Shown in pieces: positions 14,025 through 57,533 of a stretch of 64,000 bases of DNA. Location: IMG/VR virus record IMGVR_UViG_3300005842_000010, positions 1-64,000 of that record, one strand, 5' to 3'. The position numbers were made by a program, and so were the translations under genes. The DNA comes from a virus. The notes beneath the pieces were generated by a model that did no database searches, had not been told where the DNA came from, and saw nothing but the letters and a program-made list of their open reading frames with translations. Numbering within the stretch: the stretch's first letter is position 1; every line of letters starts with the position of its first letter.

Positions 14025-14030
14025 CATTAT

Positions 14031-15560
14031 CTACTTCCAGAGGACGGCCACAGCCCCTTCACCGAAGCTTTTTGCAGGTCCGGCATCAGGTTTTCCACCA
14101 GTCAACATATCAGACCCACTCGAAAGCGATGGTGGGCGCGCCGGTTCCGTTGGCCGGGCTGCTGGTTCTGGCTGTGGCGCTGGCTGCGGTTCAGGCTCTG
14201 GTTGTCGCACATTTGGATCGGCAGCAGGCTTACCATTGCCATTTTTGACGTATTTCTTCTTCGCCAGGGTGTCGCGACGCGCAATTTCGCGCTTTGCCCT
14301 GTCGGTAATATCGCTCTGAATAATCTCTTTCAGATCGCTCGCCTGGAGACAAATGCGCGTAGCTTTGAGATCGTCAAGCTTTTGCTGTTTTTGTGCATCG
14401 GTGCCCGGACCATCATAAATCTGCCGTTTCATCCGCTGCATATCGGCTATCGAGGTGAATTGCTTGCCGTTAATGATCTGTTCCTCGGCTGGGCCGTTGA
14501 GGATTTCGTTCTCAGTGGCGTTTGAATAACGGAGAATCGCGGCATGCGCCCACCGTCTATCGGCATCGTTCGGATCATTGGGATCGTGCCGGTGTGGATT
14601 GATTTGATACCCGTCCAGCTCGTCAACCTTTTCCAGCTCAGTCCTGATGGCTACCAGCTCCGCGGCAGCAGTTTTTAGGATATCGCAGGCGACTGGATCT
14701 GTCTCATCCACCTTGCCGACTGCCTCATTGCTCAGGTCCGGGCGCCCGCCACTGTCACGCAGAAGCTTGCCGAGCGCAGGATCGACGGCATCCACCATCG
14801 TAACAACAGCCTGCTCCACTCGTGATTTGATGACCGGTGCCGCTCGCTCGAATGCCTTCTCTGCCTGCTGCTTCTGAATCATCGGCTGCATCCGCTTTTC
14901 CCACAGTTCCTCGGCGCGCATCTCGACCTTGGCCTCGTCCATCGCCGCTCTATCGATTGCTGGCGCGTTTGCCTCATACCACTTGGTATGCTCGGCGTTG
15001 TCCCAATCGAATGTTTCATCCGGATTCTTTTCAAGCCAGTCATCTTGATAGGCGTAGGCCTTTTTGGAGAAAGCGATAAACTTCTCTGGCATGTCGGCCA
15101 TTTTCGGATCGTTAGCTGCCATGTAGCGCAGGATCTTGAGATCGCGAGCATCATCGGCCGTCAATTCAGGTCCATCCGAAGGCGCAGGCGATGGCGGTGC
15201 CAGTCGATCGGCCACGGCATCAGCCGCAACCCTGGCCGTACGCTGAATAGTGTCCTCGAGGCTTACGCTGACTGGCCTCGGTGCCGGGGCGGGTTCTGGG
15301 GCTGGCGCGGGCGCGGGTCGCGTTGGTGCCGGAGCGGGAGCAGGTTCAACGACAACCGGAGGCTCTGCTGGAGCAATAGCTGCCGGCGGCGCTGCAGGCC
15401 TAACAGCAGGCCGCGTATCTTCTCCCCACAACGCGGAGACAGCGCTTTTGGCCAAATCTTTGAGCTGCTCCGGCGTTGGCGGCGGCTCATTGCTGGGCTC
15501 AGGTGTTGGAATCTGCGGTTTCACCGGTTCCGGTGCCGTCCTGTGAACGATTTCGATCAT
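14031..15560 (-). CDS. Scaffold-like protein, Pro/Ala-rich
   Basis: The 509-residue protein lies between portal and capsid genes, the usual scaffold position. It has long Pro/Ala/Glu-rich ends (residues about 8-95 and 440-495, low complexity), an acidic helical centre (KKAYAYQDDWLEKNPDETF, EMRAEELWEKRMQPMIQKQQ) and a terminal GEGAVAVLWK. No protease motif is evident. It overlaps the small gene upstream by 62 nt. Confidence 0.65.
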   Translation of the reverse strand: MIEIVHRTAPEPVKPQIPTPEPSNEPPPTPEQLKDLAKSAVSALWGEDTRPAVRPAAPPAAIAPAEPPVVVEPAPAPAPTRPAPAPAPEPAPAPRPVSVSLEDTIQRTARVAADAVADRLAPPSPAPSDGPELTADDARDLKILRYMAANDPKMADMPEKFIAFSKKAYAYQDDWLEKNPDETFDWDNAEHTKWYEANAPAIDRAAMDEAKVEMRAEELWEKRMQPMIQKQQAEKAFERAAPVIKSRVEQAVVTMVDAVDPALGKLLRDSGGRPDLSNEAVGKVDETDPVACDILKTAAAELVAIRTELEKVDELDGYQINPHRHDPNDPNDADRRWAHAAILRYSNATENEILNGPAEEQIINGKQFTSIADMQRMKRQIYDGPGTDAQKQQKLDDLKATRICLQASDLKEIIQSDITDRAKREIARRDTLAKKKYVKNGNGKPAADPNVRQPEPEPQPAPQPEPAARPTEPARPPSLSSGSDMLTGGKPDAGPAKSFGEGAVAVLWK

Positions 15561-15855
15561 ATTGTTTTGTTGCGTAAACTGGCTTTAGTTCAGATGCCGT
15601 AAAACTGTACTTCTCACTGTGCTGCGCCATCAACTCGGCGACGTCTTTGTAGAAAATGGCCTTTCTCAAACATTCCCGAGATTCATCGTGCTGCGTCTCA
15701 TCACCCGCCCCCAGGTTGGCAGACTTTGCCAGAGATTCAGCCGCCAGATCAAGCAAGTGCTGGCGGTAAAGCAGGGCCGGGGTTTGGCGCAGCCATTCGC
15801 GGATTTGCCGCTGCTGCTCCACCGCCATTAGTTTCGGCAAGAGCTGTATCATCAA
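15499..15855 (-). CDS. Small helical protein between portal and scaffold
   Basis: The core EQQRQIREWLRQTPALLYRQ, then HLLDLAAESLAKSANLG is helical. It overlaps the portal C-terminus by 107 nt and the scaffold start by 62 nt; a second ATG (MAVEQQ, 15828) would shorten the first overlap. Role unknown, perhaps head assembly. Confidence 0.6.
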   Translation of the reverse strand: MMIQLLPKLMAVEQQRQIREWLRQTPALLYRQHLLDLAAESLAKSANLGAGDETQHDESRECLRKAIFYKDVAELMAQHSEKYSFTASELKPVYATKQYDRNRSQDGTGTGETADSNT

Positions 15856-18286
15856 GTGTTGGTAGATTATTTACTTTGAAAAGGACATCAATCTCTCTCT
15901 GGGTTAGCACCGCCTGGGTTTGCAACGCCTTCGTCGCTTCGAGTAATGGAGTGATTTCCTTTTGCACTTCGCCGTGAACGATCTTCACGACCATCTCGAC
16001 CATAGCCTGCAGCTCTTGCTGCTTCTCGGCCGCCTGCTGTTCCGGGCTGGTATTGGGTGCCACATTCCTAAATTTGAAATCCTTTTCGATGCCGGCCAGC
16101 CGGCAAATGCGGTTCAGCCACTCGAGCGCCTGATCCGGGCCGATGGACTGCATCAGCATCGGCACACTAAGAGATTGCTGCAAAATTAAGGCCATTGCCT
16201 GGGCGGCTTTCGCGTTGTCCTGACGATCGTTGCCGTCGCGCGTGCTGATAAGCGACCAAATCGGCATGGCCGAGAGGTGCTTTTTGTTCACTTTATAGAG
16301 GCGCCACTGGTCCTTGGGAACGATCAATTCCTCCTTTTTATGAGCGAGGAATCCCAAGTCGTTAAGCTGCTGCTGCGTCAGCGGAACGTCGCTCGGCAAG
16401 TGAACCCAGAAATCTTCGTCGCCGTATTGCATCAGCCCGATATAAAGCTGCCGCTTCCAGGCATCGCGGGCGATATCAACCGGCGTGGCGGTAAATTGAA
16501 GCCTCGAGCTGGTGCTCTGTTCGATGTTTCGAACTTCATCCACTCTCAGCTCGTGCGAGGCTGCCTGGGCAATCTCCTGGCTGCTCATCACCAGCACGCG
16601 CTCGAGTATCTCAAGAATCGTCCGGAGCACGTTCGACATTTCGGCCACGTTGCCTCGAGGGAAATTGAAGCTTTGAACCACGTCGGGAATGCCTCGGTTA
16701 CCGACCTGCAGCTTGAGCGCTTTCTTGCTCGAATAGCCGAAGATGTTCAGGAACCGGTAAAACTTTTCGCCGAGGTTCCTGAGCTGATCGATTGTGTCAC
16801 GCGCACCATGCCGCTGGTTCGGGTCACCAGTCATTAGCTGGTCCTCGTCGATAAAAGTCAGGTTGGCCAGATTCTGCTTACACGTCAGAATGATCTGCGT
16901 GAGCATGTTGCTGAAATGATCTTGGAACGGGAGGATCTCCAGGCTGAGGCTTGCATTCTTCGTGCGGCTCTCATCGGCGTCGTAGCCGTAGTAGATGACG
17001 GGATCATACGGTACCGGCGCCGCGTAGAGGATAGTGCATCCATCCCCGGCCACCATGAATCGGAACCACACCGGACAATCATAATCGCCGAGTCCATTCT
17101 CCTTCGGGATCAGCCGCTCCCAATACTCTGTAATCAGCACGCCCTGGTCGTTGTAATCCGTGCCGTAGTACAGGCTGCCGATCGCCTTCTCACGATCAAC
17201 CGACGGACTGCCCACTGAAAGCTCTGCGCCAAGCACCGCCCCCTGTGGCATCTTCCGCACAGGCATGCACGTCAATTGGCACCCGGAATAGACTGAGGTG
17301 AAAAACAACCGGTTATCTGCGATCAAATCCGTGCTGCCTAGCGCTATCCGGTCCTTGTTCCAGTAGTTTCCACTCAAGATCTCGCGATAGCGAGCGATGC
17401 GCCAGTAGCCGGCAAACTCACATCCATAGCCGTAATTGAGCGTGAAGGGCGGGTGCGCCAGGTCGTAGAACATGCGCGATGGATGAGGCAGGTGATAATC
17501 GATACCCTCACGATCAGTCACTTTGATTTCATCATTCAGGTTTGCCGGGGTGCCGTCATCCTTCTTATGCCCGAGCGCCACGTCGATTTCATCGGCATAC
17601 TTGCGCTGATCTTCCCAGTGCCACTCGTGCTTTGGAAATTGCAGGCACATCGAGTAATGCAACATTTTCAGCACAGCCTGCTTCGTCACGTCGAAATAAC
17701 CGTACTGCGTTGAAATCACCTGGACGCGATCGGTAAGCGCCTTGCATTTCAAGTTGAGCACTGTCGTTTGATCAACTGGCTCGTATTTGAAAAAAGGGGT
17801 CAGGCGGCGATCGTTCATTATCTTCGCCCACCGGATCGTGACGTACGATCGTACGAGCGGAACAAACACGTTGAAGAACGTCGGGACATTGAGACACTTT
17901 TTTAGCTGCTGAGTTTTGGGATCCATGACCTCAGTGATCATGTTTGTCAGCCCCCAACTCTGGAACGCTTTGTAAACTGACTCATCATTCGGGTCTTGAT
18001 CGGCCAGTTGCTGCAGGAGGGTTTGCGTCACCTGGCGGAATGGAGTTTCCCAAGCGGTATCGAGCGCATGATAAACCCGGTAGTCAGCGAAATTGCGCTG
18101 CATGCCCTCTTGAATGCGGGAGCGTATTCGATTGATCAGTCTGCCGCGTCGGGCCGCGAGAGCTAGCGGGATATCTTGATTATTGACATCGCCTTCCGGA
18201 ACGGCGAGCGGATCGATGCCAAGCCACTTCTCTAAGTTTTCTGGCGTGAGGCCATACTTCTTTAAGCAATTTAAGTCGGCTGACAT
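15749..18286 (-). CDS. Portal protein (podovirus-type, 845 aa)
   Basis: Large size, a helical N-terminal region (RGRLINRIRSRIQEGMQRNF), a central wing and crown portion with YxLPHPSRMFYDLAHPP and YYGTDYNDQGVLITEYWERL, and a C-terminal stem region with an AQAMALILQQSLSVPMLMQS helix before a disordered Ala/Pro-rich tail. It precedes the scaffold and capsid genes and lies near the terminase gene. It forms the dodecameric DNA gate of the head. The family match is by overall pattern; no single signature motif exists. Confidence 0.8.
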   Translation of the reverse strand: MSADLNCLKKYGLTPENLEKWLGIDPLAVPEGDVNNQDIPLALAARRGRLINRIRSRIQEGMQRNFADYRVYHALDTAWETPFRQVTQTLLQQLADQDPNDESVYKAFQSWGLTNMITEVMDPKTQQLKKCLNVPTFFNVFVPLVRSYVTIRWAKIMNDRRLTPFFKYEPVDQTTVLNLKCKALTDRVQVISTQYGYFDVTKQAVLKMLHYSMCLQFPKHEWHWEDQRKYADEIDVALGHKKDDGTPANLNDEIKVTDREGIDYHLPHPSRMFYDLAHPPFTLNYGYGCEFAGYWRIARYREILSGNYWNKDRIALGSTDLIADNRLFFTSVYSGCQLTCMPVRKMPQGAVLGAELSVGSPSVDREKAIGSLYYGTDYNDQGVLITEYWERLIPKENGLGDYDCPVWFRFMVAGDGCTILYAAPVPYDPVIYYGYDADESRTKNASLSLEILPFQDHFSNMLTQIILTCKQNLANLTFIDEDQLMTGDPNQRHGARDTIDQLRNLGEKFYRFLNIFGYSSKKALKLQVGNRGIPDVVQSFNFPRGNVAEMSNVLRTILEILERVLVMSSQEIAQAASHELRVDEVRNIEQSTSSRLQFTATPVDIARDAWKRQLYIGLMQYGDEDFWVHLPSDVPLTQQQLNDLGFLAHKKEELIVPKDQWRLYKVNKKHLSAMPIWSLISTRDGNDRQDNAKAAQAMALILQQSLSVPMLMQSIGPDQALEWLNRICRLAGIEKDFKFRNVAPNTSPEQQAAEKQQELQAMVEMVVKIVHGEVQKEITPLLEATKALQTQAVLTQREIDVLFKVNNLPTLDDTALAETNGGGAAAANPRMAAPNPGPALPPALA

Positions 18287-18288
18287 AG

Positions 18289-18681
18289 CTATATGGCGCG
18301 CTCAAGGAGTGAGTGATCAACCATGTCCCCGATACGTTCACCGAGTTCGATGATTGGACGCTCTATCTTAGGAATGAGCCTATTGTTCGACTCCATTACC
18401 CAATCATACATGCCGCGCGTTTTCCCCTCGAGTGCTCTCATATCAAACGACGCGTGGAAAAAGGCATCCATGTCATCAAACAGTCCGCTGGGTCTAAATA
18501 GCATCTCGAGCTGCGCTGGAGTTAGCTGCGCAATTGACGCTTGAGTGATACTTCCGCAATCTGGCGTAAATCCAGGCGGAGTTATTACCTTCCAAACTAT
18601 TGGCTCAAACTTTGGAATGAAGATAAGCGGAGCTATCGCAAGGCTTAACTTCGTGAAAAATGAACGACGGCTCTGCATCAC
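18289..18681 (-). CDS. Paralogue of the capsid N-terminal region with Tat-like signal
   Basis: Residues about 38-105 (CGSITQASIAQLTPAQLEML, then FRPSGLFDDMDAFFHASFDM, then TRGMYDWVMESN) are clearly homologous to residues 70-135 of the capsid candidate, about half identical. The N-terminus has QSRRSFFTK, then LSLAIAPLIFIPKF, a twin-arginine-like hydrophobic leader. It sits 2 nt upstream of the portal gene. It may be a minor head protein or an assembly regulator, or a remnant of a gene duplication. Confidence 0.65.
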   Translation of the reverse strand: MMQSRRSFFTKLSLAIAPLIFIPKFEPIVWKVITPPGFTPDCGSITQASIAQLTPAQLEMLFRPSGLFDDMDAFFHASFDMRALEGKTRGMYDWVMESNNRLIPKIERPIIELGERIGDMVDHSLLERAI

Positions 18682-18971
18682 TTGCCCATCTCGCGACGTT
18701 GCTTGATCAGCTCGGCGGGAGTCCTGGCCTTTTTCTTCGGAGTGGGCTTCGGAGTCTCTTCACCTTCATCGCCGCCAGCCGCGTCCAGGCTCATCACATG
18801 AAACCGATGCTCAAGCGGAGGCGTTTGCGTGTCGCGCACCAAGCCGCCCATCGCCATCTTTTCATCGTCGGTGTCCTTTACCCGCTTCAGCTTGGCGCGC
18901 ACGTAATCGCCGCCTTTCGCAACCACTGGATGATGCGCCGGAAGCCTAACCTCGCAAATCGGGTCTGACAT
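18678..18971 (-). CDS. Hypothetical first gene of the late operon, 97 aa
   Basis: The start is set at ATG 18971, 7 nt after the -10 box, rather than an upstream ATG at 19019 that would include the promoter. The N-terminal half (ICEVRLPAHHPVVAKGGDYV) is strand-like and the C-terminal half is Lys/Pro-rich. Function unknown. It ends in an ATGA overlap. Confidence 0.6.
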   Translation of the reverse strand: MSDPICEVRLPAHHPVVAKGGDYVRAKLKRVKDTDDEKMAMGGLVRDTQTPPLEHRFHVMSLDAAGGDEGEETPKPTPKKKARTPAELIKQRREMGK

Positions 18972-18978
18972 ATAGCCC

Positions 18979-19007
18979 CTTATGCGCCTTGCGTGCGGCA
19001 CTGTCAA
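18979..19007 (-). promoter_or_regulatory. Late-operon promoter
   Basis: Minus strand TTGACA (19007-19002), 17-nt spacer, CATAAG (18984-18979; four of six to TATAAT). The ATG at 18971 is 7 nt further on, so the mRNA is predicted to be leaderless. The divergent gene starts at 19023, so the two control regions overlap. Confidence 0.6.
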
Positions 19008-19022
19008 CGGTAATCTCAATAC

Positions 19023-19313
19023 ATGAACATAACCAAAGTATTAGGAGATCGCGTACTCATCGAACCTCTACCCGTCGAACAGGTCAGCGCCGGCGGAATA
19101 GAACTGCCTCAATCCGTCCGTGGAAAACAGTCTGTCGGCATCGTGCGGATGGTTGGCGAAGGCACTGGCGACCCATCCATGCGTGCGCTCATGGCCGAAA
19201 TTGCAATCGGGCAGACTGTCAGGACAAATATCAATATGGGGAGCGTCGAGGTTACATTTAATGGCGCAGAGTGCCGGATTCACTCGGTTCGAGACGTTGA
19301 AATGATTCTGTGA
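19023..19313 (+). CDS. groES: GroES-like co-chaperonin
   Basis: The 96-residue protein has the co-chaperonin layout: KVLGDRVLIEPLPVEQVSAG, then GIELPQSVRGKQSVGIVRMV, then GEGTGD, with QTVRTN and a terminal VRDVEMIL. The mobile-loop region (about 20-33) is shorter than in bacterial GroES. Phage co-chaperonins such as T4 Gp31 replace host GroES to fold the large capsid protein inside GroEL. Its place next to the terminase gene and opposite the capsid operon suits that role. Confidence 0.88.
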   Translation: MNITKVLGDRVLIEPLPVEQVSAGGIELPQSVRGKQSVGIVRMVGEGTGDPSMRALMAEIAIGQTVRTNINMGSVEVTFNGAECRIHSVRDVEMIL

Positions 19314-19322
19314 GTTGACATC

Positions 19323-20903
19323 ATGCAAGATATTCACGGCAATTGGATACCCGACTCGACTCCAAAGCAACTGGAGGTATTCAACGACAGATCCCATGTG
19401 CTTCTGGTCTCAGGGCCGCGGGCGACAGGCAAAACACGAGGCTGTTTGAATAAAATCGTTAGGCATTTGTGGGAAACGGATAGGGCTCGCTGCATTATGT
19501 TCGCCCGCACTAAGACGCTTGCGAAAGATGCCGGAACTTGGAGCGTGCTTCATCAAAACACGCTCCCCGAATGGATAAATGCAAACATCGGCCTACGCTA
19601 TACCAGCTTCAACAATGGCATTCCTGGCGCAAAGGTTGATGGCACGACCAGAAGCCCCTACTTCAAAATAAGAAATCGGCACGGAAACGATTCTGAAATG
19701 TTTTTATTCAGCTTGGACAACGACGACGATGCTGAGACAAAAATGAAGAACCTCGAAGCCTCGATGTTTTATTTTAGTGAGCTGGATAATTTTGGCGACC
19801 GTCGGGTTTTAGTTGTCCCGCTGGCTGCCTTGCGTATTGGCACATTCGAAGAGCAGCAATGGATCGCCGATTGCAATCCGAGCGAAGAGGGCGAGCAAAG
19901 CTGGATCTACCAGATTTTTTTGAAGGAAAGATTGATGACGTTTGAGGATTTCAGCGCTCATCAAAAGCGATCCGATCTTCCGCCAATGACTGAGCAAGAG
20001 TTTAAGGATTTCTATGGCAATATGAACGTCATAGAGATGTTTCCGCAGGACAATTTATTCGCTGATCAGCGCCTTCTTTCAAATATAAAACTTTCTTGTG
20101 GCGCCGACGCCGGCCTCTACGCGCGCCACGTCGAGGGCAAGTGGGTATGGGGCGGCGGCGATGCCTCACGCCATTTCCGCAGCTACTTCAAATCTCATCA
20201 CATCATCGGCAAAGCTGATGGCCCAGAGGAAGACTGGGAAACGGCCGGGCTGACGGATGGCTGCTACGAGCTGGTCACCGGCTGGGACTTGGGCGAGGTG
20301 AACCATTCATTTCACATCATCGAAAAGACATTCCCGCGCACGCCGCTGTCCTTGGCCATGAAGATGAACATTCCATATTTCACGATCATCGACGAGCTGG
20401 TTCTGATAGGAAAAGAGGTTTCGCATGAAGAATTCGCGATGGCAGGCATGGAGATGATCGAAAAATTAGAGGAACTCTACGGAAAAACTTTCAACCTCGA
20501 AGGGATAGCCTGGTCCGATCAGAGCGCCATCACGAATTACAGCTCCATCGCGGATACCTTCCCTTATCAGCTCGTGGCGGCCGCGACCGGTGATCGCATC
20601 GTCCTCCGCGGCGTTCCGAAGGCGCACCATTCAGTGTTCGAGCGCGTGCGCCTGGTGAAGCAGCTTCTTAGTCAAAACCGGCTGGCCGTGTCGGCGCACT
20701 GCGAGCATACCCTGGCGATGTTCCGTGATTTGAAGAAGGGGAAGGACAAAATCAATTTCATCGAGCGCGACAAAAACAAGCACAAGCATCCGTTTGATTC
20801 AATGTCGTACGCGCTGCTGATGGAATGCGCTGAAGAGATCCAGGCCAACGCCTCGACTCCGAACACCGTCAAGCGATCGCTTGGGCTCGTGCAGGTGGGG
20901 TGA
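19323..20903 (+). CDS. terL: Terminase large subunit
   Basis: The 526-residue packaging motor has a Walker A-type loop (SGPRATGKTRG, residues 30-40), a Walker B (MFYFSELDNF, about 148-157) with the catalytic Glu, and a C-terminal RNase H-like nuclease with GWDLGEVNHSFHII, then a later DQSAITNY and a terminal HPFDSMSYALLME. It starts 9 nt after the co-chaperonin stop. No small subunit was recognised; the HTH gene that follows on the other strand is one candidate. Confidence 0.93.
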   Translation: MQDIHGNWIPDSTPKQLEVFNDRSHVLLVSGPRATGKTRGCLNKIVRHLWETDRARCIMFARTKTLAKDAGTWSVLHQNTLPEWINANIGLRYTSFNNGIPGAKVDGTTRSPYFKIRNRHGNDSEMFLFSLDNDDDAETKMKNLEASMFYFSELDNFGDRRVLVVPLAALRIGTFEEQQWIADCNPSEEGEQSWIYQIFLKERLMTFEDFSAHQKRSDLPPMTEQEFKDFYGNMNVIEMFPQDNLFADQRLLSNIKLSCGADAGLYARHVEGKWVWGGGDASRHFRSYFKSHHIIGKADGPEEDWETAGLTDGCYELVTGWDLGEVNHSFHIIEKTFPRTPLSLAMKMNIPYFTIIDELVLIGKEVSHEEFAMAGMEMIEKLEELYGKTFNLEGIAWSDQSAITNYSSIADTFPYQLVAAATGDRIVLRGVPKAHHSVFERVRLVKQLLSQNRLAVSAHCEHTLAMFRDLKKGKDKINFIERDKNKHKHPFDSMSYALLMECAEEIQANASTPNTVKRSLGLVQVG

Positions 20904-21225
20904 TGCCGGCCATCAGCTTCGCCAGCATCTTGCGCTGCGCGACGGTAGCCCGGTCGAGGTAAGAAAGATTTCGATGGCGCAGAAACCGGAGATGCTTCTT
21001 TGGCTGCAGGAGGTTCACACCACAGGCATGGCTGAAAGCTTCGATATCGGATAGCCTCAGCAACGACCAGCTCGCCATGTGGGAGATTTGAACTACCCGA
21101 ACCCGTGAGAGCCCGCTCCTTTCACAAATCTCCTCTTCCGTCATCAACCGTAACCCATTACTCGAACGGGCCAGCAATCGGCAAAGCCTTGGAGGGATTC
21201 GATCAAATCTGGCCGTGTACGTCAT
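20869..21225 (-). CDS. Helix-turn-helix protein, possible small terminase
   Basis: Residues about 29-75 form an HTH: MTEEEICERSGLSRVRVVQI, then SHMASWSLLRLSDIEAFSHA. The C-terminal part is basic (KKHLRFLRHRNLSY). It overlaps the 3' end of the terminase gene by 35 nt in convergent orientation. DNA-binding small terminase or regulator are both possible. Confidence 0.6.
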   Translation of the reverse strand: MTYTARFDRIPPRLCRLLARSSNGLRLMTEEEICERSGLSRVRVVQISHMASWSLLRLSDIEAFSHACGVNLLQPKKHLRFLRHRNLSYLDRATVAQRKMLAKLMAGITPPARAQAIA

Positions 21226-22130
21226 AGTGGCGTAATTACCGTGTTCGTTATGGCAATCCGATGCTGTGACATGGTGTAAAATCCATAAGCCTTGGTTGGG
21301 TCCAGCTCGATCTTCATGGTGTACACCCCGTCACTCAGGCCGGTGATATCAAACCACATACAGGGTTGAACATTGTACGCATCTCCCCATCCGGGCATGA
21401 GGTTGGGAGAATTGCAAGATCCGGGTTGTGGATCGGTGTTCCATCCCAGGTCCAGAACCTTACCAAAGTTGATAACACACCACCCCATCTTTCGGCTTGT
21501 GACTTGGGCGGTATCCCCGATCAAAGTGAACTTGCTGAAGTTCGTCAGGTGAAAGTGATGATGGCATGGATCGTAAAAGTAGTAAGGCCCGCTCGGGCCA
21601 TACCAGTAATTGGCATTGTTCGGATTCCATACCGTCACCGGGAAGCGCAACAGCTTGCGCGGGCCAGGTTCAGCGCACCCCTCGGCCACAGCACAATCAT
21701 TGGTACCGAACGTCAAAGTTTCAATCCACGCCGCTGCCCAATAAACGTGAGTAGCGGCAACCCCAAACCGATCATCATCCAGAATCGTGATCGTGTTAGT
21801 CGGTGGCTGTTCAATGCGATAGAAACAGTTGGGTTGAGTGATCGGGAATGACAAGAATGTATTGGTGACAGGACTGACCAGAACCGTCCACGGCCCTGTG
21901 CTGTTCGTGCTGCACCAAACTGTGTATGCGCTTGAGTTTGTCCCTGGACTCCAACTCAGGGTTATCGTGCCATTCGAGGCTGCGATGTTCGTGATCGAAA
22001 AGGTTGGGAGTGGAACGAAAGTGAGCCGCGCCGAAACCTTCATCGGCCTGCCAAGGCTCTCCACTTGCTCCTGGTGTTTGGGAGATCTGATGACTAGGCC
22101 CAGGACAGCCAGGGCCAGCAGTGTTCTCAC
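21222..22130 (-). CDS. Exported protein with Fn3-like and lysyl oxidase domains
   Basis: Residues 1-16 (MRTLLALAVLGLVIRS) are a likely signal peptide. Residues about 43-105 are an Fn3-like domain (TNIAASNGTITLSWSPGT). Residues about 150-297 match the lysyl oxidase fold: YYFYDPCHHHFHLTNFSKF with the copper-binding His cluster (His190-192, His194), then SRKMGWCVINF, then NLMPGWGDAYNVQPCMWFDI and DGVYTMKIELDP. Lysyl oxidases turn lysine side chains into aldehydes that cross-link proteins. In a phage this could stabilise virions or alter the host surface. The quinone cofactor residues cannot be confirmed by eye. Confidence 0.8.
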   Translation of the reverse strand: MRTLLALAVLGLVIRSPKHQEQVESLGRPMKVSARLTFVPLPTFSITNIAASNGTITLSWSPGTNSSAYTVWCSTNSTGPWTVLVSPVTNTFLSFPITQPNCFYRIEQPPTNTITILDDDRFGVAATHVYWAAAWIETLTFGTNDCAVAEGCAEPGPRKLLRFPVTVWNPNNANYWYGPSGPYYFYDPCHHHFHLTNFSKFTLIGDTAQVTSRKMGWCVINFGKVLDLGWNTDPQPGSCNSPNLMPGWGDAYNVQPCMWFDITGLSDGVYTMKIELDPTKAYGFYTMSQHRIAITNTVITPL

Positions 22131-22131
22131 G

Positions 22132-23757
22132 CTACTTATTAACCTTCATTATAAACGCATCGCTGTTTCCGTATGACGTGAGTGGAATGGTTCCGAACAT
22201 GACAGGTGTTGGCTGTTGGTTCGGAGTGTGGCTTGGGCTAAAGAACCCACAAACGACTGGATTTCCACTCAGATCACTGACCAATCCTTTGGCACTATCA
22301 ACGCCCGTTCCCCCAACCTCAAGCGGCCAACCGTCCTGCAACACAAGCGAGTTGTTGTATTTGGCGACAAAAGCGTCGTATTGATTTTCTGGTGTTACAG
22401 GCATTGACCTTCCACTAAAGTCGTAAACACCACTGCTGCCCAAATAACAGGTCATATAAACCTCGTTTTGAGATCCAAACATTACCGCCGTAGGGCCACA
22501 CGCATTTACTGGATTCATGTAAGTCGCGGCCATGTAATGTCCGTCAATGGCGGAGTACTTGGCAAGGAACCCGCTTGCGTCGGATGCAGTGCCATTTACA
22601 GTTCCACCACCCAAATCAGTCCTTATTGAAAAATATCCCGCAACCGCAATCGTGCTGTATTGAGGATCAATGCCAATACAAAGCCCAACAGTTCCCTTAA
22701 GGGGGTAGCCGTGTGGAAACGACCACGAGGATGCACCATACGATCCGTCAGGTGCGATTTTGGCCACATACATCCACTGCTGCTGGCCTCCCGACGTGTG
22801 TATAGCTGTCGATTCATCGCCAAGCTGCAAATAGCCAGTAAAATCGCCAGCGAGATAAATATTGTCCACAGAATCGAGAACAATATATACATTCGGTGGT
22901 CCACCTCCAGATTGGTACATTCTCGACCACAAATGATTGCCGTCATGCGAATATGAGGCCAGCACTATTGATGGTCCTTGGTAAGCATTAGTAACGGGGC
23001 TTCCGGGATGGCCTGGAGTTCCAAAATTTAATGTGGGAGGAAGAGGACCAGGCGCGAATCTTCCACCAACGATAACATTTCCGGCGCTGTTTATTTTAAT
23101 CGTGGTAAAGGCATCGTTTGTTCCTGTTGGAATACCGAAACTATAGGACCAACGATGTACCCCAGTTGAGGTATAGCTTGCGATCCATGCATGGCCACCA
23201 GGAAGATCACCCCCACCAAGATTTGCAGTTCCAGAAACTAGCCCGCAGAGATATATATTCCCACTGGAATCCACCGCTATTGCGATGGGCTGTAGGTCTC
23301 CCGACGATCCGCCGTAACTTACGGACCATACATGATTCCCCTCGTTGTCGTACTTCACGATAAAAATAGCAGACCTTCCTGTCGGCGATGTAAGGCCGGC
23401 TGCCGAAACCCCCGGCGTTCCAAAATTAGCCGTTCCCTTGAAATAGCCAGCCATGATAAATGAGCCGTCAGGGTTTCTGGCTATACAGGCTGCTGCATCA
23501 TTTAACGAACCCCCGCCCTTTCGCGCCCACGCCACGCTTCCCGACGGCTGATTCACCGGGCTCACCGGTCCAGCGATCGTTGACGGGATCTCTTGAGCGG
23601 TAAGTGTAATTCCTCTTACGCGATAATAAGCGCCGTTCGGAATTGGGTTTGCGAAAACGTGGGCTGGCGATGAGAGATGCGCGCTACTGCGTGATAACGG
23701 GGAAAAATTATTGTTCAACGATTCTTCAGCAACGTAATAGTCAATGTTGTCGCTCAT
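22132..23757 (-). CDS. SBBP-repeat beta-propeller protein
   Basis: The start is set at ATG 23757 (MSDNIDYYVAEES), after the upstream stop at 23774. Across 540 residues the SBBP-like unit recurs: GSFIMAGYFKGTANFG, GNIYLCGLVSGTANLGGG, DNIYLAGDFTGYLQLG, STIAVAGYFSIRTDLGGG and GNPVVCGFFSP, with intervening NHVWSVSYGGSSGD-like strands. This gives a surface propeller. It adjoins the Tat-leader Fn3 gene. Likely a secreted or virion adhesin. Confidence 0.75.
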   Translation of the reverse strand: MSDNIDYYVAEESLNNNFSPLSRSSAHLSSPAHVFANPIPNGAYYRVRGITLTAQEIPSTIAGPVSPVNQPSGSVAWARKGGGSLNDAAACIARNPDGSFIMAGYFKGTANFGTPGVSAAGLTSPTGRSAIFIVKYDNEGNHVWSVSYGGSSGDLQPIAIAVDSSGNIYLCGLVSGTANLGGGDLPGGHAWIASYTSTGVHRWSYSFGIPTGTNDAFTTIKINSAGNVIVGGRFAPGPLPPTLNFGTPGHPGSPVTNAYQGPSIVLASYSHDGNHLWSRMYQSGGGPPNVYIVLDSVDNIYLAGDFTGYLQLGDESTAIHTSGGQQQWMYVAKIAPDGSYGASSWSFPHGYPLKGTVGLCIGIDPQYSTIAVAGYFSIRTDLGGGTVNGTASDASGFLAKYSAIDGHYMAATYMNPVNACGPTAVMFGSQNEVYMTCYLGSSGVYDFSGRSMPVTPENQYDAFVAKYNNSLVLQDGWPLEVGGTGVDSAKGLVSDLSGNPVVCGFFSPSHTPNQQPTPVMFGTIPLTSYGNSDAFIMKVNK

Positions 23758-23773
23758 AAAAATGGATTTAATC

Positions 23774-24232
23774 CTAAAACTCTGGTGGTGTCCATGAAAG
23801 ATGAACTCCATCGGCTTGTACATCTGCCGTCAGCGGCATTGGCACCTGATCGTGGATACGAAAGTAGGCATCGTCGCCAAGCGCAGGCACCGAAATCGAT
23901 CTGGCCATCGTCGAATTGCCGATCGCCTGCCACGGCGAACTCAGTGAATCCTTGCGCTCAACGACAAATGGGCCTGTGCCACCCTGCCAGGTAATCGTAA
24001 TAATCCCACCAGCGACAGAAACCGATGCGACTGAAGCAGCTGGAGGCGCAGATGGGGCCGCGGCCAGTCTTTGCTTAGGTTGCACGACCTCTACAGAGAT
24101 TCGAACCTTCCTTAAACTGTCAACGAACTCGGTGTCCTTCGGGCTTCGAAGCGTCCGTCTCCATCCAGGGGGCATTGGCACAGCGGCCGCGACTGCGACA
24201 GACGAGGACAGAAATTTGCGTCGATTAAACAT
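23774..24232 (-). CDS. Tat-leader protein with Fn3-like domain, 152 aa
   Basis: The start FNRRKFLSSSVAVAAAVP is a textbook twin-arginine signal. The rest includes an Ala/Pro linker and an Fn3-like unit (GGIITITWQGGTGPFVVERK). It ends DVQADGVHLSWTPPEF, close to the end of the gene at 34212 (DGVHLSWV). Tat export would carry a folded protein to the periplasm. Confidence 0.65.
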   Translation of the reverse strand: MFNRRKFLSSSVAVAAAVPMPPGWRRTLRSPKDTEFVDSLRKVRISVEVVQPKQRLAAAPSAPPAASVASVSVAGGIITITWQGGTGPFVVERKDSLSSPWQAIGNSTMARSISVPALGDDAYFRIHDQVPMPLTADVQADGVHLSWTPPEF

Positions 24233-24399
24233 CAGAGTCCGCCCTTGCGCGCGCGGAAGCGTTTGACGCGGGATTTTCCCCAGGCTTCAAGAATATTAAG
24301 TGCTCGATTATCTGGATGCGTGATTAGCATGCGCTGAAGTTTTCGCATCCACACCTGCCGCTCCTCGCTCGCGCCTTTGTGTTCGGATTTCTTTGGCAT
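24232..24399 (-). CDS. Small basic protein, 55 aa
   Basis: The frame MPKKSEHKGASEERQVWMRK, then LQRMLITHPDNRALNILEAW is helical and basic. Its TGA overlaps the ATG of the next gene by one base, and its ATG is one base after the stop upstream. Function unknown. Confidence 0.55.
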   Translation of the reverse strand: MPKKSEHKGASEERQVWMRKLQRMLITHPDNRALNILEAWGKSRVKRFRARKGGL

Positions 24400-24400
24400 T

Positions 24401-24562
24401 TTAGTTGAATGGGTTGTGATGCCAAAATCCCAGGATGCCGATCAGGATTAAGATGACGAGGCGTGAGCCAGTTCCGGTCCACGCCCATTTTGGATCGTTG
24501 GGAACGAAACAGCCGAGCCCGCAGAGTAGAAGCAATATCCACCAAAAAACTTCGATTACCAT
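24401..24562 (-). CDS. Small two-span membrane protein, 53 aa
   Basis: Two hydrophobic helices, VFWWILLLLCGLGCFV and RLVILILIGILGFWHH, flank a short polar loop (PNDPKWAWTGTGS). It lies beside the papain-like peptidase and other membrane genes, so a holin-like role is possible. Confidence 0.55.
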   Translation of the reverse strand: MVIEVFWWILLLLCGLGCFVPNDPKWAWTGTGSRLVILILIGILGFWHHNPFN

Positions 24563-24587
24563 AATTTTCCTTTTTTTGTTGACCGAG

Positions 24588-25355
24588 TTAATTTTCCACC
24601 CGTGTAATTATCCATCTGTCATCTGCCAGCCCGGGATTAGCGGCATAGTCGAACGGAATATAAAAAAAGCCCCCAAACGGTCCCCACGCCGCGCCGTATG
24701 AATTCTTGATCTTGAACAGCCGTTTAATTCGGTCGTAACCAACACACTTCACGGCATGACCTCCAATCGGTGAACGCTCCGAGTCATCCGGCAACCGGAG
24801 TATTCCAGTGCTCTCCATCTCGGGAGTTTCAAAGAACCCAAAAACACTGAATCCAAAGACAAACGGACGTTTAACCAGAGCAAGGCATTGCATCATCTCT
24901 GTCTCGCTCGGAGCAATGCGCCGGTACTCTAGGGCCTGGTTTTTCTCCGCAGTCAGGTAAGTATCGAACGGAGGCTGCTCTGTGAACTTGGAAATGTCGT
25001 AGGGCCAATCAATCTCAGGGCACACCCCTTGTTTCACAACTGACCTGATCGTATCGCGCAGCGAAGCCCCGGAGTCGTAGTCAACTGTTCCCTCAATATC
25101 TCGCGTGTTGTAGTACAGGAACAATCTTGACGGGGTGATGAAACTTAAGCCCTGGGCCTTGCGCTCGAAATCAAAAGCGGATGCCACGGAATTGGCTGTG
25201 CAACTGCCAAGTTGGCCTTGGTTGTAAACTGGAGGGCATTGCGCAGACAGGTCAACCACGTCCGGCAACACGGCATGAGGCATCGAGAAAACCCTATCTT
25301 GGATCTGGGGCAAATCCCTGACCCACCCGTAGCGTTTTATCTGTCGATGCTTCAT
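24588..25355 (-). CDS. Papain-like (C1A) cysteine peptidase
   Basis: The catalytic centre is visible: QGQLGSCTANSVASAFDFE with Gln46 and Cys52, a late GGHAVKCVGYDR with the catalytic His, and IKNSYGAAWGPFGGFFYIP with the Asn. There is no signal peptide. The 255-residue length suits a bacterial or viral C1A enzyme with no propeptide. It is surrounded by small membrane genes and lipoproteins, so it may act in host lysis as an endolysin substitute, or in virion maturation. No canonical endolysin was seen in the window. Confidence 0.85.
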   Translation of the reverse strand: MKHRQIKRYGWVRDLPQIQDRVFSMPHAVLPDVVDLSAQCPPVYNQGQLGSCTANSVASAFDFERKAQGLSFITPSRLFLYYNTRDIEGTVDYDSGASLRDTIRSVVKQGVCPEIDWPYDISKFTEQPPFDTYLTAEKNQALEYRRIAPSETEMMQCLALVKRPFVFGFSVFGFFETPEMESTGILRLPDDSERSPIGGHAVKCVGYDRIKRLFKIKNSYGAAWGPFGGFFYIPFDYAANPGLADDRWIITRVEN

Positions 25356-25356
25356 T

Positions 25357-25470
25357 TCATTCCCAACTCGCTAAAGCCATGCTGACCATCAGGCCAGTAA
25401 CAAATGCCACCGTACCCCAGAACAGGACTGCTGCGATCCTGAAAGCTGTGTCTATGAATTCATCTTTCAT
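25357..25470 (-). CDS. Single-span membrane peptide, 37 aa
   Basis: MKDEFIDTAFRIAAVLFWGT, then VAFVTGLMVSMALASWE. Its ATG overlaps the stop of the lipoprotein gene upstream (ATGA) and its stop lies just before the peptidase ATG. Possible lysis accessory. Confidence 0.6.
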   Translation of the reverse strand: MKDEFIDTAFRIAAVLFWGTVAFVTGLMVSMALASWE

Positions 25471-25733
25471 TTGGGAATTGGAGGCAGAGTAGTTGTCGAA
25501 TCAGCAGCAGATTTTAGCCCTTCATACTCTACACTGCTGATAACCACGTTTCCATCCTCATTGATATACGGCGTCTGGTGCCTCGTGAAAGCCACGGCAT
25601 GATTGGATGGTTGCGTGATGCGCTTGGCCACGGTCACGGTTGGCGGGGTTGACTTGAATGGCTGGAAAGCAATCTGGATCTGGCAACCGCATAGCAGGAG
25701 TGGAATTAACAGCCAGAGAAGTCGAAGGTTCAT
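25467..25733 (-). CDS. Small lipoprotein, 88 aa, outer-spanin-like
   Basis: A lipoprotein signal is visible (NLRLLWLLIPLLLCGC, lipobox LCGC, Cys about 15-17). The mature part is short and proline/threonine-rich. Size and location in a lysis-like cluster resemble an outer-membrane spanin subunit, but no partner is proven. Confidence 0.6.
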   Translation of the reverse strand: MNLRLLWLLIPLLLCGCQIQIAFQPFKSTPPTVTVAKRITQPSNHAVAFTRHQTPYINEDGNVVISSVEYEGLKSAADSTTTLPPIPK

Positions 25734-26377
25734 CTCGGACCCTTTAATTTCATCACGCCCTGGAGTTTAATAGTCGCAGCCGTCTTTTCATTCCCCGCCT
25801 GAGTCGTGATTTCCTGCAAAGCACCGACTATTGTTCCTGCGCGATAGTACTCACCAATCTGTGTCATGCCCTGAGAAAGCGGATAATCTGCCGAACTGAG
25901 TGTGATCATGTTCTCCTGAATCTGAACCAGCTTAGTTTTCCGGTTCGCATCCATGGTCGCTATCAAGGCGGTAGTGGACTGTTGAAGGAAGAAGTTTTTA
26001 TCAACCGAAACCCTGCCTCCGGCCACGCCAGCCGAGATTGCCGCCAGGATTGATTTGGCGGCCTCGCCAGAAATCAATGTTCCCGCCCCGCCCAGTCCTA
26101 TAAGAGCCAAGTCCGTGATGGTGTCAAATGTTGCCCTACCTTGATACAGGCCGTTGATAAACTGATCGTAATTCAGATCAGTCAGGAATATCAGATCGTT
26201 CAAAACTTGATTGCGTTGAACTTCCGGCACCGGATCGTTCGGTATGCCACCGGGCTTGGCGTATTTTGCGATTAGGTTTGCTGCCAATGAATTTTCAAAG
26301 GCGACCTTCTTTGGTGATCCTTTAGGGACACCGGCGCAACCGCAAAGCACCACAAGAATTATCGGTAAAAGTTTCAT
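25730..26377 (-). CDS. Lipoprotein, 215 aa
   Basis: MKLLPIILVVLCGCAG is a lipoprotein signal. The mature region is mostly helical, with a glycine/alanine-rich central segment (DLALIGLGGAGTLISGEAAK, then AAISAGVAGGRVSVD) that could insert in a membrane. The 4-nt overlap with the next gene suggests joint translation. Function unknown. Confidence 0.6.
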   Translation of the reverse strand: MKLLPIILVVLCGCAGVPKGSPKKVAFENSLAANLIAKYAKPGGIPNDPVPEVQRNQVLNDLIFLTDLNYDQFINGLYQGRATFDTITDLALIGLGGAGTLISGEAAKSILAAISAGVAGGRVSVDKNFFLQQSTTALIATMDANRKTKLVQIQENMITLSSADYPLSQGMTQIGEYYRAGTIVGALQEITTQAGNEKTAATIKLQGVMKLKGPR

Positions 26378-26547
26378 GGTCCTATGAAATTCCTAATCTC
26401 GTTCGCCATAAACCACATTCCAGCGCGGTAGTGGACCTGAGCGCAGCCAGGATACGCTTTGTCCCACTCGTGCGCAGATCTGTCAGCCAGCTCCGCCTCT
26501 TTAGAGATATATTCCCTGAGCGCTTCAAATTTTTCCTCCGCTGTCAT
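26374..26547 (-). CDS. Small acidic helical protein, 57 aa
   Basis: TAEEKFEALREYISKEAELA, then DRSAHEWDKAYPGCAQVHYR. ATG at 26547 directly abuts the stop of the upstream gene and TGA overlaps the next ATG. Unknown role. Confidence 0.55.
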   Translation of the reverse strand: MTAEEKFEALREYISKEAELADRSAHEWDKAYPGCAQVHYRAGMWFMANEIRNFIGP

Positions 26548-27087
26548 TTAACGCAAATGCGGCGGCAGAGGCTTGGCCGCTTTTAACAAAGCGGGATTCC
26601 CTGGCGGCAAACCTGCCTGCATCCCATTGCATAAATCCTTTCCATAGAGCCGGATCTCAGTGTCATTCGTGCTGAGGCCGGAAACCACCACGTTGAGCAG
26701 CGAGAGGCTTCCATTGATAATCAGTCGAGCTGTAACGTTTGTTACATTTGCCGCCTCAAGCGCTTTGACGATTTCAGAAGGCGTAACGTTTGTTCCGTTT
26801 GCCACTGCGCATACCACCGGAACGGCAGCGCGGACATGCGGTGTGGCTTCGGGATGAGTCTCAAGGCCAATCTGCTCGCCGAGCGTGACAGCGGCAGTAA
26901 ACGCCGCATGGCTCATTGCTGGGTTACCAGCACAACCCACGAACATCAGGCACACGCCGGCCAGGACTGCCGCGAGCGCTACAGTCAGCAGGCACAGCTT
27001 TTTCTGACGTTCAGCTTTTTCGGTTTCGAGCATCAGTTCATATCGGGTTCGGAGTTTGATGATGTTATTCATAAGCAGGGGTATCAT
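26548..27087 (-). CDS. Membrane-anchored or lipoprotein-like protein, 179 aa
   Basis: A charged N-terminal helix (about 1-30) is followed by a hydrophobic span with a lipobox-like end (CLLTVALAAVLAGVCLMFVG then CAGNP). The rest is Ala/Val/Asn-rich. The layout (cytosolic helix, one span, periplasmic domain) would suit an inner-membrane spanin. ATGA overlap upstream. Confidence 0.5.
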   Translation of the reverse strand: MIPLLMNNIIKLRTRYELMLETEKAERQKKLCLLTVALAAVLAGVCLMFVGCAGNPAMSHAAFTAAVTLGEQIGLETHPEATPHVRAAVPVVCAVANGTNVTPSEIVKALEAANVTNVTARLIINGSLSLLNVVVSGLSTNDTEIRLYGKDLCNGMQAGLPPGNPALLKAAKPLPPHLR

Positions 27088-27290
27088 TTTGCCTCACCCT
27101 GCGCCTCTGGCTGGCGCGAGTCAACAGCTAATCGTAACCCGGACGAAACGAAGATATCCACCTCCCGGGCTGGCCGAACACAAATCCAGTTGCAACCTTC
27201 CACTCCGGCACCGACATAATGCTCCATCAACTCGGGTATTGTCCGGCCACAGTGCGGACAGAGTATCGCCTTACTCTTTTGAGCCATCAA
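27084..27290 (-). CDS. Zinc-ribbon-like small protein, 68 aa
   Basis: One CPHCG knuckle near the N-terminus and a later CNWIC pair could bind one zinc ion. It overlaps the holin-like gene by 20 nt. Unknown function. Confidence 0.5.
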   Translation of the reverse strand: MMAQKSKAILCPHCGRTIPELMEHYVGAGVEGCNWICVRPAREVDIFVSSGLRLAVDSRQPEAQGEAK

Positions 27291-27540
27291 ATTCCTTCTG
27301 AGCCTTTTTCAAAGCCAGATCATCTCCTGTTTGAGCGAGGGGAACGTTTCCGGCACCAGCAGCAGCCAAACCATAGGTCACTGCCACCCCTTCGATGATA
27401 TGGATCGTGGCGCGGATCTGCTGGGAATAAATCTGAAACCACACCTCGAATATCTCCAGGCCCGTTTTACAAAACAGATAAGTCAACGCTGCATATCTGG
27501 TGTGTTTATTGGCCCATAATGCGGCAAAGACGTTCTTCAT
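27271..27540 (-). CDS. Holin-like membrane protein, 89 aa
   Basis: Two moderately hydrophobic helices (YAALTYLFCKTGLEIFEVWF and HIIEGVAVTYGLAAAGAG) with a charged C-terminus suit a small class II holin. It is coupled by 4 nt to the coiled-coil membrane protein upstream. The assignment rests on topology and place. Confidence 0.5.
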   Translation of the reverse strand: MKNVFAALWANKHTRYAALTYLFCKTGLEIFEVWFQIYSQQIRATIHIIEGVAVTYGLAAAGAGNVPLAQTGDDLALKKAQKEFDGSKE

Positions 27541-27869
27541 TTTTTAATAAAGAAAAAGAGTAGCCCGATACCTACGCTGGCCGCAATAGCCCAGAGCACG
27601 ATGGTGATGCTGCTTTTCCCTCCTCCGGCAGCAATTGCGTCTCGGACAGTATCGCGCCATTCATTGGCTCCGACCTTGTATTCTTTCAAAGCTTGTTCAG
27701 TTTTCTCGCTGGCCTTTTCAGCAGACGCAAACGCGGCCTTGATAGCTTCTTTGTTTGCCGCGTTACGCTCATCCATGAGCTTCTCGAAAGCCAAACGAAG
27801 CTCCCGCTCAGCCTTGATTCGCTCAGCTATGACTTCGATTTTATGGCAGTTGGTTTCATCGTTGCTCAC
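27537..27869 (-). CDS. Coiled-coil protein with C-terminal membrane span
   Basis: Residues about 10-80 are a helical coiled coil (ERNAANKEAIKAAFASAEKA, then SEKTEQALKEYK) and the last 25 are hydrophobic (SITIVLWAIAASVGIGLLFF). It resembles a group of phage proteins found beside holins, of hemolysin XhlA-like layout. It is the first gene of this lysis-like cluster. Confidence 0.6.
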   Translation of the reverse strand: MSNDETNCHKIEVIAERIKAERELRLAFEKLMDERNAANKEAIKAAFASAEKASEKTEQALKEYKVGANEWRDTVRDAIAAGGGKSSITIVLWAIAASVGIGLLFFFIKK

Positions 27870-27924
27870 AAATACAAAACTACTTCGCCATCACCGGAAG
27901 TGCGAGAATGAAAAAATTTCCACA

Positions 27925-28650
27925 TTAGAAAGGCTTGAAACAGGCAGTCGGAGTGCCGATAGTAAACGTAATCGTGGCATATTCCCCGTTCTGCAAAAGC
28001 ACCGTGTTCTGTCCGATGGTGGAAAAAATAGTTCCTCCGTTTATGCCGACTGTGCCCGTCACAGAAATTCCATCAACATACACGACGCAATTAACCCCAA
28101 GCGTATTTGTCCAGTTTACCGGGCTTGCTCCGATAGTTATTGAAGTGCAGGCGACAAGATTGGAACGATAAGAAGCAAGGCCGTTAGTGGACGTGACAGC
28201 ACCTTTGAAAATAGCGTTCGTGCTGAAAAGCCAAGTTCCAGTGGTTGATCTTGAGTAGTAAGTTTCCATTGCACTGGCGACAGACGGATCGTTATTATTC
28301 CCATAACCAACCGTTGTCGATTGAGCCAGATACATCAATGCCTGAGCTAGAGAAAGCACGTAAGATGACCCTACTTGGAATGTTGGCCTGCTTCCAGTGT
28401 AAAGAATCCCATCTGTGGCGGATGCGGTAAATCCATAGCTGGGTGAGTTAAAAGCTCCGCTTCCTAGCTTGATTGTGGTGTTTGTGAATATTGGGGTATA
28501 TCCGTTTGTCACCACCCCCACTGGAAGGTTGGCCAGTCCGATGGAGCCTACGGTATCAGTCCCGCCAATCACTTGCCTGATTCCGTCTGCGGCATAGACG
28601 CCGAGAACGATGAGGCAACCAAGGGCGAGGATTAGAAGGGATTTGATCAT
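27925..28650 (-). CDS. Exported strand-rich protein, 241 aa
   Basis: A signal peptide (MIKSLLILALGCLIVLGVYA) is followed by ADGIRQVIGGTDTVGSI, a segment shared with the next gene upstream. The rest is Thr/Ser/Gly-rich beta structure with a VNCVVYVDGISVTGTVGING stretch. It may be a surface or virion fibre protein. Confidence 0.6.
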   Translation of the reverse strand: MIKSLLILALGCLIVLGVYAADGIRQVIGGTDTVGSIGLANLPVGVVTNGYTPIFTNTTIKLGSGAFNSPSYGFTASATDGILYTGSRPTFQVGSSYVLSLAQALMYLAQSTTVGYGNNNDPSVASAMETYYSRSTTGTWLFSTNAIFKGAVTSTNGLASYRSNLVACTSITIGASPVNWTNTLGVNCVVYVDGISVTGTVGINGGTIFSTIGQNTVLLQNGEYATITFTIGTPTACFKPF

Positions 28651-56308: not shown

Positions 56309-56637
56309 ACGACCAAGAGTTAAACTACCAAACAGAGCGGGCCTCGAAGTATCGCGAATTGTCCAAGGTGCGTAATGAGATTTACGCAGCCATAAAAACC
56401 ATAACCGCCGAGGACAAAACCGGACCATGCGGCCAAGGTCCCTTCACAGGAAACGCCAGCGAGTCAAGACAGGTCGCATACATGCGGATAGGATTCTCCT
56501 GTACGCGCGGAGGTGCCGATCCAGTCGAAATATACATTGCGGATCTTCACATTGAGGCATGGGATCTTGGGCGTGCGCTGGAAAGCATGTTGAGAGCTGC
56601 CCTTGTTCCGGTTAACGAGGCGATTGAGAAGCTATGA
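56305..56637 (+). CDS. Hypothetical protein, 110 aa
   Basis: Helix-strand-helix: RASKYRELSKVRNEIYAAIK, then SRQVAYMRIGFSCTRGGADP and EAWDLGRALESMLRAALV. ATGA overlaps upstream and downstream. Unknown. Confidence 0.55.
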   Translation: MNDQELNYQTERASKYRELSKVRNEIYAAIKTITAEDKTGPCGQGPFTGNASESRQVAYMRIGFSCTRGGADPVEIYIADLHIEAWDLGRALESMLRAALVPVNEAIEKL

Positions 56638-57533
56638 AAGCCAAGGACGCATTCGCCCAGTTCCTAAAAGTGCGGCAATCGATCTGCACGCAAACCACCC
56701 TCGACATCTATCGGTGGATGCTGGTTGATTTTTTCAAGCACATTGACCCAAAGACGCTCGTGACCGAGATCGATCAGGGAATGATCGCTGGCTGGATTCA
56801 GAAGCTCCGCGAGGACGGTATCAATCCGAACACCATTCGCAAAAAGCTGGGCATCCTGGGTGTATTCTTTGGCTGGTGCCGTAACAGTGACCTGCTCGAC
56901 GTGCAGAGCGATCCGCTTGTGGGCGTGCCAGTTGTCCGAAAGGCGGACACTCAGAAAGTGCCGTTCACCTGGGAACAGTTCCAGGCTGTGCTCACGTTCG
57001 CAAAAGCCAACCGCACGCGCCGTAGCTATGATTGGGAACACATTTGCACGCTCGCCTGGCATACCGGACTGCGATTGTCCGATTGCTGCTGCCTCCAATG
57101 GTCGCAAGTTGACTTTATCAGTGACGTGATAATGGCCCGTCCCAAAAAGCTCGAATTCAAACGGCAAGAGCTGGTGATCCCGATGCACCCAGATCTGCGA
57201 GCCCACTTATTGACGAGGTATAGCGCACGCACAAACGAGGAATGGGTTACGCCCGAGTTGAGGATTGTTTACTTGTCCCGTGCGTACAACATAAAGAAAG
57301 CCTTTCGGGCACTCTGCGATAAGCTGGGGTATCGGCAGTACAGCATGCACTCATTTCGCCACGGGTTCATAACTCGCCTACTTAATGCGGGAGCGAGCGC
57401 AGAAGTGGTTAGGCAAATGACAGGCCAGTCTTTGGCAACATTGTCCACCTATGCCCACATTTCAGTTGATGCTAAAAGAGCAGCTCTTGAAATGGCCGAT
57501 CAGCCATCACAATCCAAACGTATCACCGCATGA
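56634..57533 (+). CDS. int: Tyrosine recombinase (integrase)
   Basis: The 299-residue protein has an N-terminal SAM-like arm domain (residues 1-100, DAFAQFLKVRQ...) and a catalytic domain with the full set: Arg147 (HTGLRLSD), Lys171-172 (ARPKKLEFKRQEL), His239 and Arg242 (HSFRHGF), His/Trp-position region, and Tyr273 (STYAHI). It suggests integration or circularisation. No attachment site was seen nearby. Confidence 0.9.
   Translation: MKAKDAFAQFLKVRQSICTQTTLDIYRWMLVDFFKHIDPKTLVTEIDQGMIAGWIQKLREDGINPNTIRKKLGILGVFFGWCRNSDLLDVQSDPLVGVPVVRKADTQKVPFTWEQFQAVLTFAKANRTRRSYDWEHICTLAWHTGLRLSDCCCLQWSQVDFISDVIMARPKKLEFKRQELVIPMHPDLRAHLLTRYSARTNEEWVTPELRIVYLSRAYNIKKAFRALCDKLGYRQYSMHSFRHGFITRLLNAGASAEVVRQMTGQSLATLSTYAHISVDAKRAALEMADQPSQSKRITA

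Follow-up and report, generated by a model that had tools for sequence, protein, structure and literature searches.

A lysyl oxidase family gene with intact predicted catalytic residues in a tailed phage

RESULTS

A lysyl oxidase gene in a virus record

The window analysed here comprises positions 1 to 64,000 (64,000 nucleotides) of the 79,434-base virus record IMGVR_UViG_3300005842_000010. On its minus strand, at 21222..22130, an ORF with a GTG start encodes a protein of 302 aa, at the place given by the original prediction, which had described it as a phage-encoded lysyl oxidase (LOX) domain. Among 24,736 Pfam models, PF01186 (Lysyl_oxidase) is the single family above cut-off in this ORF, with E=1.1e-8 and 35.4 bits for a curated cut-off of 20.4 bits; the match covers residues 156-280 (21291..21665, minus strand) and profile positions 50-176 of 204. 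No significant match of the protein was obtained in PHROGs and NCBIfam. In the PDB, human LOXL2 (5ze3) was its top match by sequence (E=2.9e-4) and the sole entry matched by a 24-sequence profile (E=9.8e-25).

The two sequence pieces quoted in the original prediction, CHHHFHLTNFSKF and PGWGD...WFDITGLSDGVYTMKIELDP, are both found in the ORF. The HHHFH cluster is present as well, but HHHFH and CHHHFH are a single motif (residues 189-194) and not separate ones. The three LOX motifs did not occur in order in any of 100,000 shuffled versions of the sequence, in a test whose motif was composed after the alignment had been viewed. A chance occurrence of the motif was rejected on this result together with the PF01186 E-value.

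Predicted catalytic residues and fold

The CHHHFH site (21549..21566, minus strand), located by alignment and motif search, is predicted to bind copper through H190, H192 and H194. Two residues absent from the original prediction are also present on this strand, K214 in RKMGWC (21489..21491) and Y252 in GWGDAY (21375..21377); they align with the LTQ positions of LOXL2 in the PDB sequence alignment and are the predicted cofactor lysine and tyrosine, respectively. In an alignment of 25 rows, made of the window LOX, 22 bacterial loci and two copies from another phage, H190, H192, H194, K214, C218, G247, D250, Y252, G268 and Y270 were invariant (25/25). The assignment of copper His and LTQ Lys/Tyr for LOX generally is given in section 7 of PMC4448552; according to the same section, a further His found N-terminally in the animal type is also absent from bacterial LOX. 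This His, two residues before the Cys in the pattern WHxCHxHxH, is missing from the window protein, where FYDPCHHHFH has Asp at that position. Eight cysteines are found in the protein.

The whole-chain AlphaFold2 model (25 rows) was weak, with a mean pLDDT of 56.4, but blocks within residues 131-220 averaged 62-92. Foldseek ranked LOXL2 top for this model (E 6.4e-7), and VIA-align gave 5ze3 a Z of 13.9 with an rmsd of 3.2 over 169 aligned residues, the runner-up reaching Z 6.5. The low-confidence model had no match at E<=0.001 in the viral structure library. As judged by these comparisons, the model presents the LOX catalytic fold. The original prediction had named absence of the fold, or loss of the conserved His residues in all relatives, as what would speak against it; instead, the fold was recovered by prediction, and none of the 25 aligned sequences has lost any of the three His. 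Family search, fold and conserved catalytic residues thus all back the claim, and the ORF is confirmed as a LOX family protein with intact predicted catalytic residues.

N-terminal half of the protein

A hydropathy scan revealed a hydrophobic segment at residues 2-15 (22086..22127, minus strand), a putative signal peptide or anchor. This crude scan, which gave an 11-residue mean of 3.19 with R2 in front, supports the export signal originally proposed. No obvious signal-peptidase site was seen by eye in the N-terminus, which might serve as an anchor or, with lower probability, be cytoplasmic.

The Fn3-like domain of the original prediction was recovered at residues 33-115 (21786..22034, minus strand). 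Folded with one paralogue, this region gave a six-strand sandwich (AF2 mean pLDDT 74.4); the VIA rows had mostly fibronectin type III domains at the top (best Z 8.0; 7.6 for 3mpc), and 3mpc was also matched by sequence with E=0.0063. Since Foldseek returned no match at E<=0.001 for these residues, we grade the modelled domain as likely Fn3-like, not proven. In addition, LOX residues 14-108 are similar to residues 28-128 of ORF 23774-24232, which lies two genes upstream (BLASTP E 4e-5), with a score of 99 compared to 61 for the best of 500 shuffles. Judging from this resemblance, the two proteins appear to have in common a front half for export with a sandwich domain, followed by different functional ends.

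Gene neighbourhood

LOX is the middle member of a tightly coupled gene trio on the minus strand. The upstream gene (22132..23823), encoding an SBBP beta-propeller protein (PF06739, 29.7 bits; phrog_8401), has a stop codon separated by 1 nt from the start of LOX, and the start of a 118-aa gene (20869..21225) overlaps the LOX stop (ATGA). The ORF resembling the LOX N-terminal half, identified by BLASTP and shuffles (23774..24232, minus strand), carries a twin-arginine-signal-like start and an Fn3-like region and changes frame into the beta-propeller ORF near TTT-TAG; this junction may reflect disruption of a gene or, alternatively, a signal for frameshifting. The same gene string includes a papain-family cysteine protease (24588..25355, minus strand; PF00112; PDB 3ois, E 5.2e-52). 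On the plus strand, a GroES-like co-chaperonin (19023-19313; PF00166, 41.7 bits) lies just before the terminase large subunit (19323..20903; phrog_2, E 5.5e-17), and a tyrosine-type integrase is encoded at 56634..57533 (phrog_1, E 1.2e-46; PF00589).

Signal-like N-termini were found for 6/14 proteins of the minus-strand cluster 21222-33186 and 6/71 elsewhere (Fisher p 0.0036, for a cluster chosen post hoc and a crude N-terminus score). Two adjacent exported-type proteins of the minus strand, 27925-28650 and 28647-29096, have a similar front (DGxRQVxGGTDTV) and different rests. The minus-strand ORFs 12083-13975 and 18289-18681 each have a hydrophobic or twin-arginine-like front, as judged by the hydropathy scan. 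The 18289-18681 protein contains CGSITQASIAQLTP; that of 12083-13975 is strongly conserved in related phages (63-69% in L094 and L095), and its L095 homologue contains CGTITRASIAHLTP.

The phage, its assemblies and its relatives

From its terminase and integrase genes, the record is identified as a tailed phage, which is probably temperate; an SU10-like portal was matched weakly (15.8 bits, below the cut-off of 30). The host may be a member of the Verrucomicrobiota, a guess from the style of the proteins. Terminase matches in genomes of three phyla amounted to 0/298, 1/282 and 1/297, both matches being weak and short. Elsewhere in the record, L005:1956-14075 (record 61956-74075, minus strand) holds a 4039-aa open frame with, by eye, methyltransferase-, helicase- and peptidase-like motifs, resembling a phage polyvalent protein.

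A separate record of 29,143 bases, which begins 71 bases before the window, is identical over the compared parts (window 11264-29072 and the first 329 bases). LOX and terminase are contiguous in it, and their junction is therefore present in two assemblies. A third record of 6,693 bases spans window 14034-20726 only. GC and GC3 of the LOX gene agree with those of its neighbours.

A portal scan retrieved seven records, two identical ones and five relatives with portal identities of 35-70%. PF01186 was found in 0/5 of these relatives by a search that detected it in both positive controls, the window's record and the second LOX phage described below. Two of the five (L093 and L094) span the LOX site and have other genes there. 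L094, a 78,136-base record, has kept the 118-aa gene beside the terminase (31%, E 1.9e-18), and the gene directly preceding it encodes 183 aa and is no LOX gene; the L093 site holds a small lipoprotein-like gene. Large signal-bearing proteins are encoded in the same block of both, one with weak pectinesterase and Ig-like matches. At L093:1015-6003, two large spike-like proteins have signal-like N-termini, which is unusual among tail proteins. Because no relative carries LOX and other genes fill its site, the gene is, from these genome comparisons, accessory cargo of the phage, found in one phage and absent at the same site in relatives, as a moron would be.

A second LOX phage and the bacterial background

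A scan with a 24-row alignment found IMGVR_UViG_3300043313_001192 (176,996 bases), in which two tandem LOX genes encode proteins of 484 and 362 aa (PF01186, 46.4 and 42.7 bits). Both keep all catalytic residues, with an HNHWH motif, and Pfam finds PF01186 only. Terminase, tape measure and Sak4-like genes indicate that this record is a tailed phage too. Beside the LOX pair are UDP-glucose dehydrogenase, two polysaccharide deacetylases, a family 2 glycosyltransferase, LamG-type proteins and DNA polymerase A. The dehydrogenase, the deacetylases and the glycosyltransferase, which is chitin-synthase-like, were seen at L034:223-3819 and 6077-8065. Collagen repeats above the PF01391 cut-off lie within a 4419-aa frame. 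The viral scans with LOX queries, run with narrow patterns, thus give a lower bound of at least two distinct phages carrying LOX.

In the tree, the LOX pair groups with Jiangella LOX (99/84), and the window LOX remains unplaced at the tip of a long branch (3.29); its highest identity is about 30%. Fragments or duplicates (L014, L023, L077, L079, L082, L084, L085) were left out beforehand, as were L067 (at the position of L007) and L002, along with repeats of both phages. An AU test did not reject a single clade of the three phage LOX genes (p 0.134), and independent acquisition by the two phages is only suggested by the tree.

PF01186 was found in 55/235 genomes of Myxococcota (the phylum to which the tree tool assigns L007, the nearest bacterial locus), 6/247 of Acidobacteriota (phylum of L010) and 18/149 of Actinomycetota (phylum of L027), so that bacterial donors are plentiful. 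By eye, the DCAVAEGC and C-x-W pattern of the window LOX is closest to the Myxococcota set.

DISCUSSION

A proposed role outside the cytoplasm

Animal lysyl oxidase is a copper enzyme that cross-links collagen and matrix. The phage protein belongs to this known family, in a setting that we did not find in print (open-licence literature), and has a front domain in common with its neighbour. We give about an even chance to the reading that this accessory gene of a tailed, probably temperate phage encodes an exported copper amine oxidase of the LOX family that modifies the host surface. Copper, oxygen and disulfides favour an enzyme outside the cytoplasm, and the export-like front and the eight cysteines agree with this.

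The following scheme starts from the family, the LOX fold, the copper and cofactor residues, the Fn3-like domain, the gene coupling and the absence from the closest relatives found; from export onward, we infer each of its steps. The N-terminus would export the protein, which outside the cytoplasm would bind copper and itself join K214 and Y252 into the lysine-tyrosyl quinone. It would then oxidise primary amines, for the most part those of lysines in envelope or matrix proteins, to aldehydes, which would cross-link, with release of H2O2. The Fn3-like domain, common to the beta-propeller neighbour, would place the enzyme on the surface, and the host surface could be changed in lysogeny or late infection (superinfection exclusion, matrix stiffening). 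Envelope or matrix proteins are most likely what such an exported amine oxidase would act on; the substrate itself cannot be inferred from a protein as divergent as this one.

Alternative explanations

The position of the gene also allows a virion role to be argued, since the string that contains LOX also includes lysis-like and tail-like (fibre- and spike-like) genes and adjoins the terminase. The beta-propeller neighbour weakly matches phrog_8510 'virion structural protein', and weak tail-fibre matches are present in the fold lists of the LOX model. Fibres or spikes of the phage itself would then carry the enzyme or be its target, and would become cross-linked mutually or to the host surface at adsorption. 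We consider this rather unlikely, yet serious, because both the gene position and the collagen-bearing second phage point there. Against it, the export-like segment and the eight cysteines fit an oxidising place and not the cytoplasm, where tails assemble, and no Gly-X-Y run of at least 6 was found in the window and L005. The original prediction had raised cross-linking of virion or host surface proteins, or lysogenic conversion, as conceivable roles; the evidence as read from the sequence leans towards an exported enzyme outside the cytoplasm and against cross-linking in cytoplasmic virion assembly. In a bolder, decidedly improbable version, phages would use collagen-type LOX chemistry for covalent extracellular structures, cross-linking lysines of phage fibres, host envelope or matrix. 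The LOX pair of the second phage, together with its collagen-repeat proteins, its glycan-synthase-like enzyme and its pair of polysaccharide deacetylases, would then amount to a matrix-making kit encoded by a virus.

A further alternative is a metabolic or protective enzyme that, to gain nitrogen or for defence, would deaminate small amines, polyamines or amine antibiotics in the surroundings of the host, any cross-linking being a side effect. The archaeal LOX is in line with this, as its substrates include many primary amines as well as aminoglycosides and polymyxin (PMC6452851). However, no gene for amine uptake or for an aldehyde dehydrogenase was noticed in the neighbours searched, and both the Fn3-like domain and the adjacent propeller protein point to a target on a surface, making this explanation unlikely. 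An acquired gene that is inactive or neutral, without a role for the phage, would account for the absence of LOX from the closest relatives found, its long branch and the broken frame of its neighbour; we hold it to be very unlikely, as the LOX frame is open, all catalytic residues are kept despite about 30% identity, and the gene is coupled to its neighbours by the 1-nt gap and the ATGA overlap. Finally, LOX is common in some bacteria (55/235 genomes of one phylum), as would suit host DNA or an assembly error beside a phage. This origin is extremely improbable: LOX and terminase are contiguous and identical in two records, GC and GC3 match the neighbours, and host contamination was rejected as largely refuted on these grounds.

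Should the enzyme be exported to the host surface as we favour, some phages may be able to alter extracellular surfaces by chemical means, and LOX would suggest a covalent route for a phage to alter its host. The function of prokaryotic LOX is called enigmatic in PMC6452851, and a phage gene offers a simple, testable setting for it. Phages are also a possible vehicle for the horizontal transfer of LOX genes inferred in the literature (PMC4448552).

Comparison with known systems

No paper on a phage LOX was found in the open-licence literature, and named phages gave no match to three LOX queries. The words virus and phage are absent from PMC4448552 and PMC6452851, and no LOX was found in mimivirus according to PMC9546862. 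Like phage morons or lysogenic conversion genes, the window LOX is an accessory gene at a variable site of an integrase-bearing phage; it differs in being embedded in a gene string.

With bacterial and archaeal LOX (PF01186; PMC4448552; HTU-LOX, PMC6452851), it has in common the three-His copper motif, the LTQ Lys and Tyr, the conserved Cys, GWxDxY and, putatively, an export-type N-terminus. A purified archaeal LOX shows amine oxidase activity on lysine-containing polypeptides, according to PMC6452851. In contrast to these proteins, the window LOX is phage-carried, has an Fn3-like domain in front and shows about 30% identity to its best relative; it also lacks the E-x-N-Y-x-N-N end found in most aligned bacterial members. 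Human LOXL2 (PDB 5ze3) is the sole LOX among solved structures matched by both sequence and fold, whereas the window protein has the Fn3-like domain in place of the animal front domains and is without the extra N-terminal copper-site His. The closest parallel in setting is the LOX pair of IMGVR_UViG_3300043313_001192, which is likewise phage-borne with catalytic residues kept; unlike the window LOX, this pair groups with Jiangella, carries HNHWH, has only PF01186 by Pfam and lies beside polysaccharide genes.
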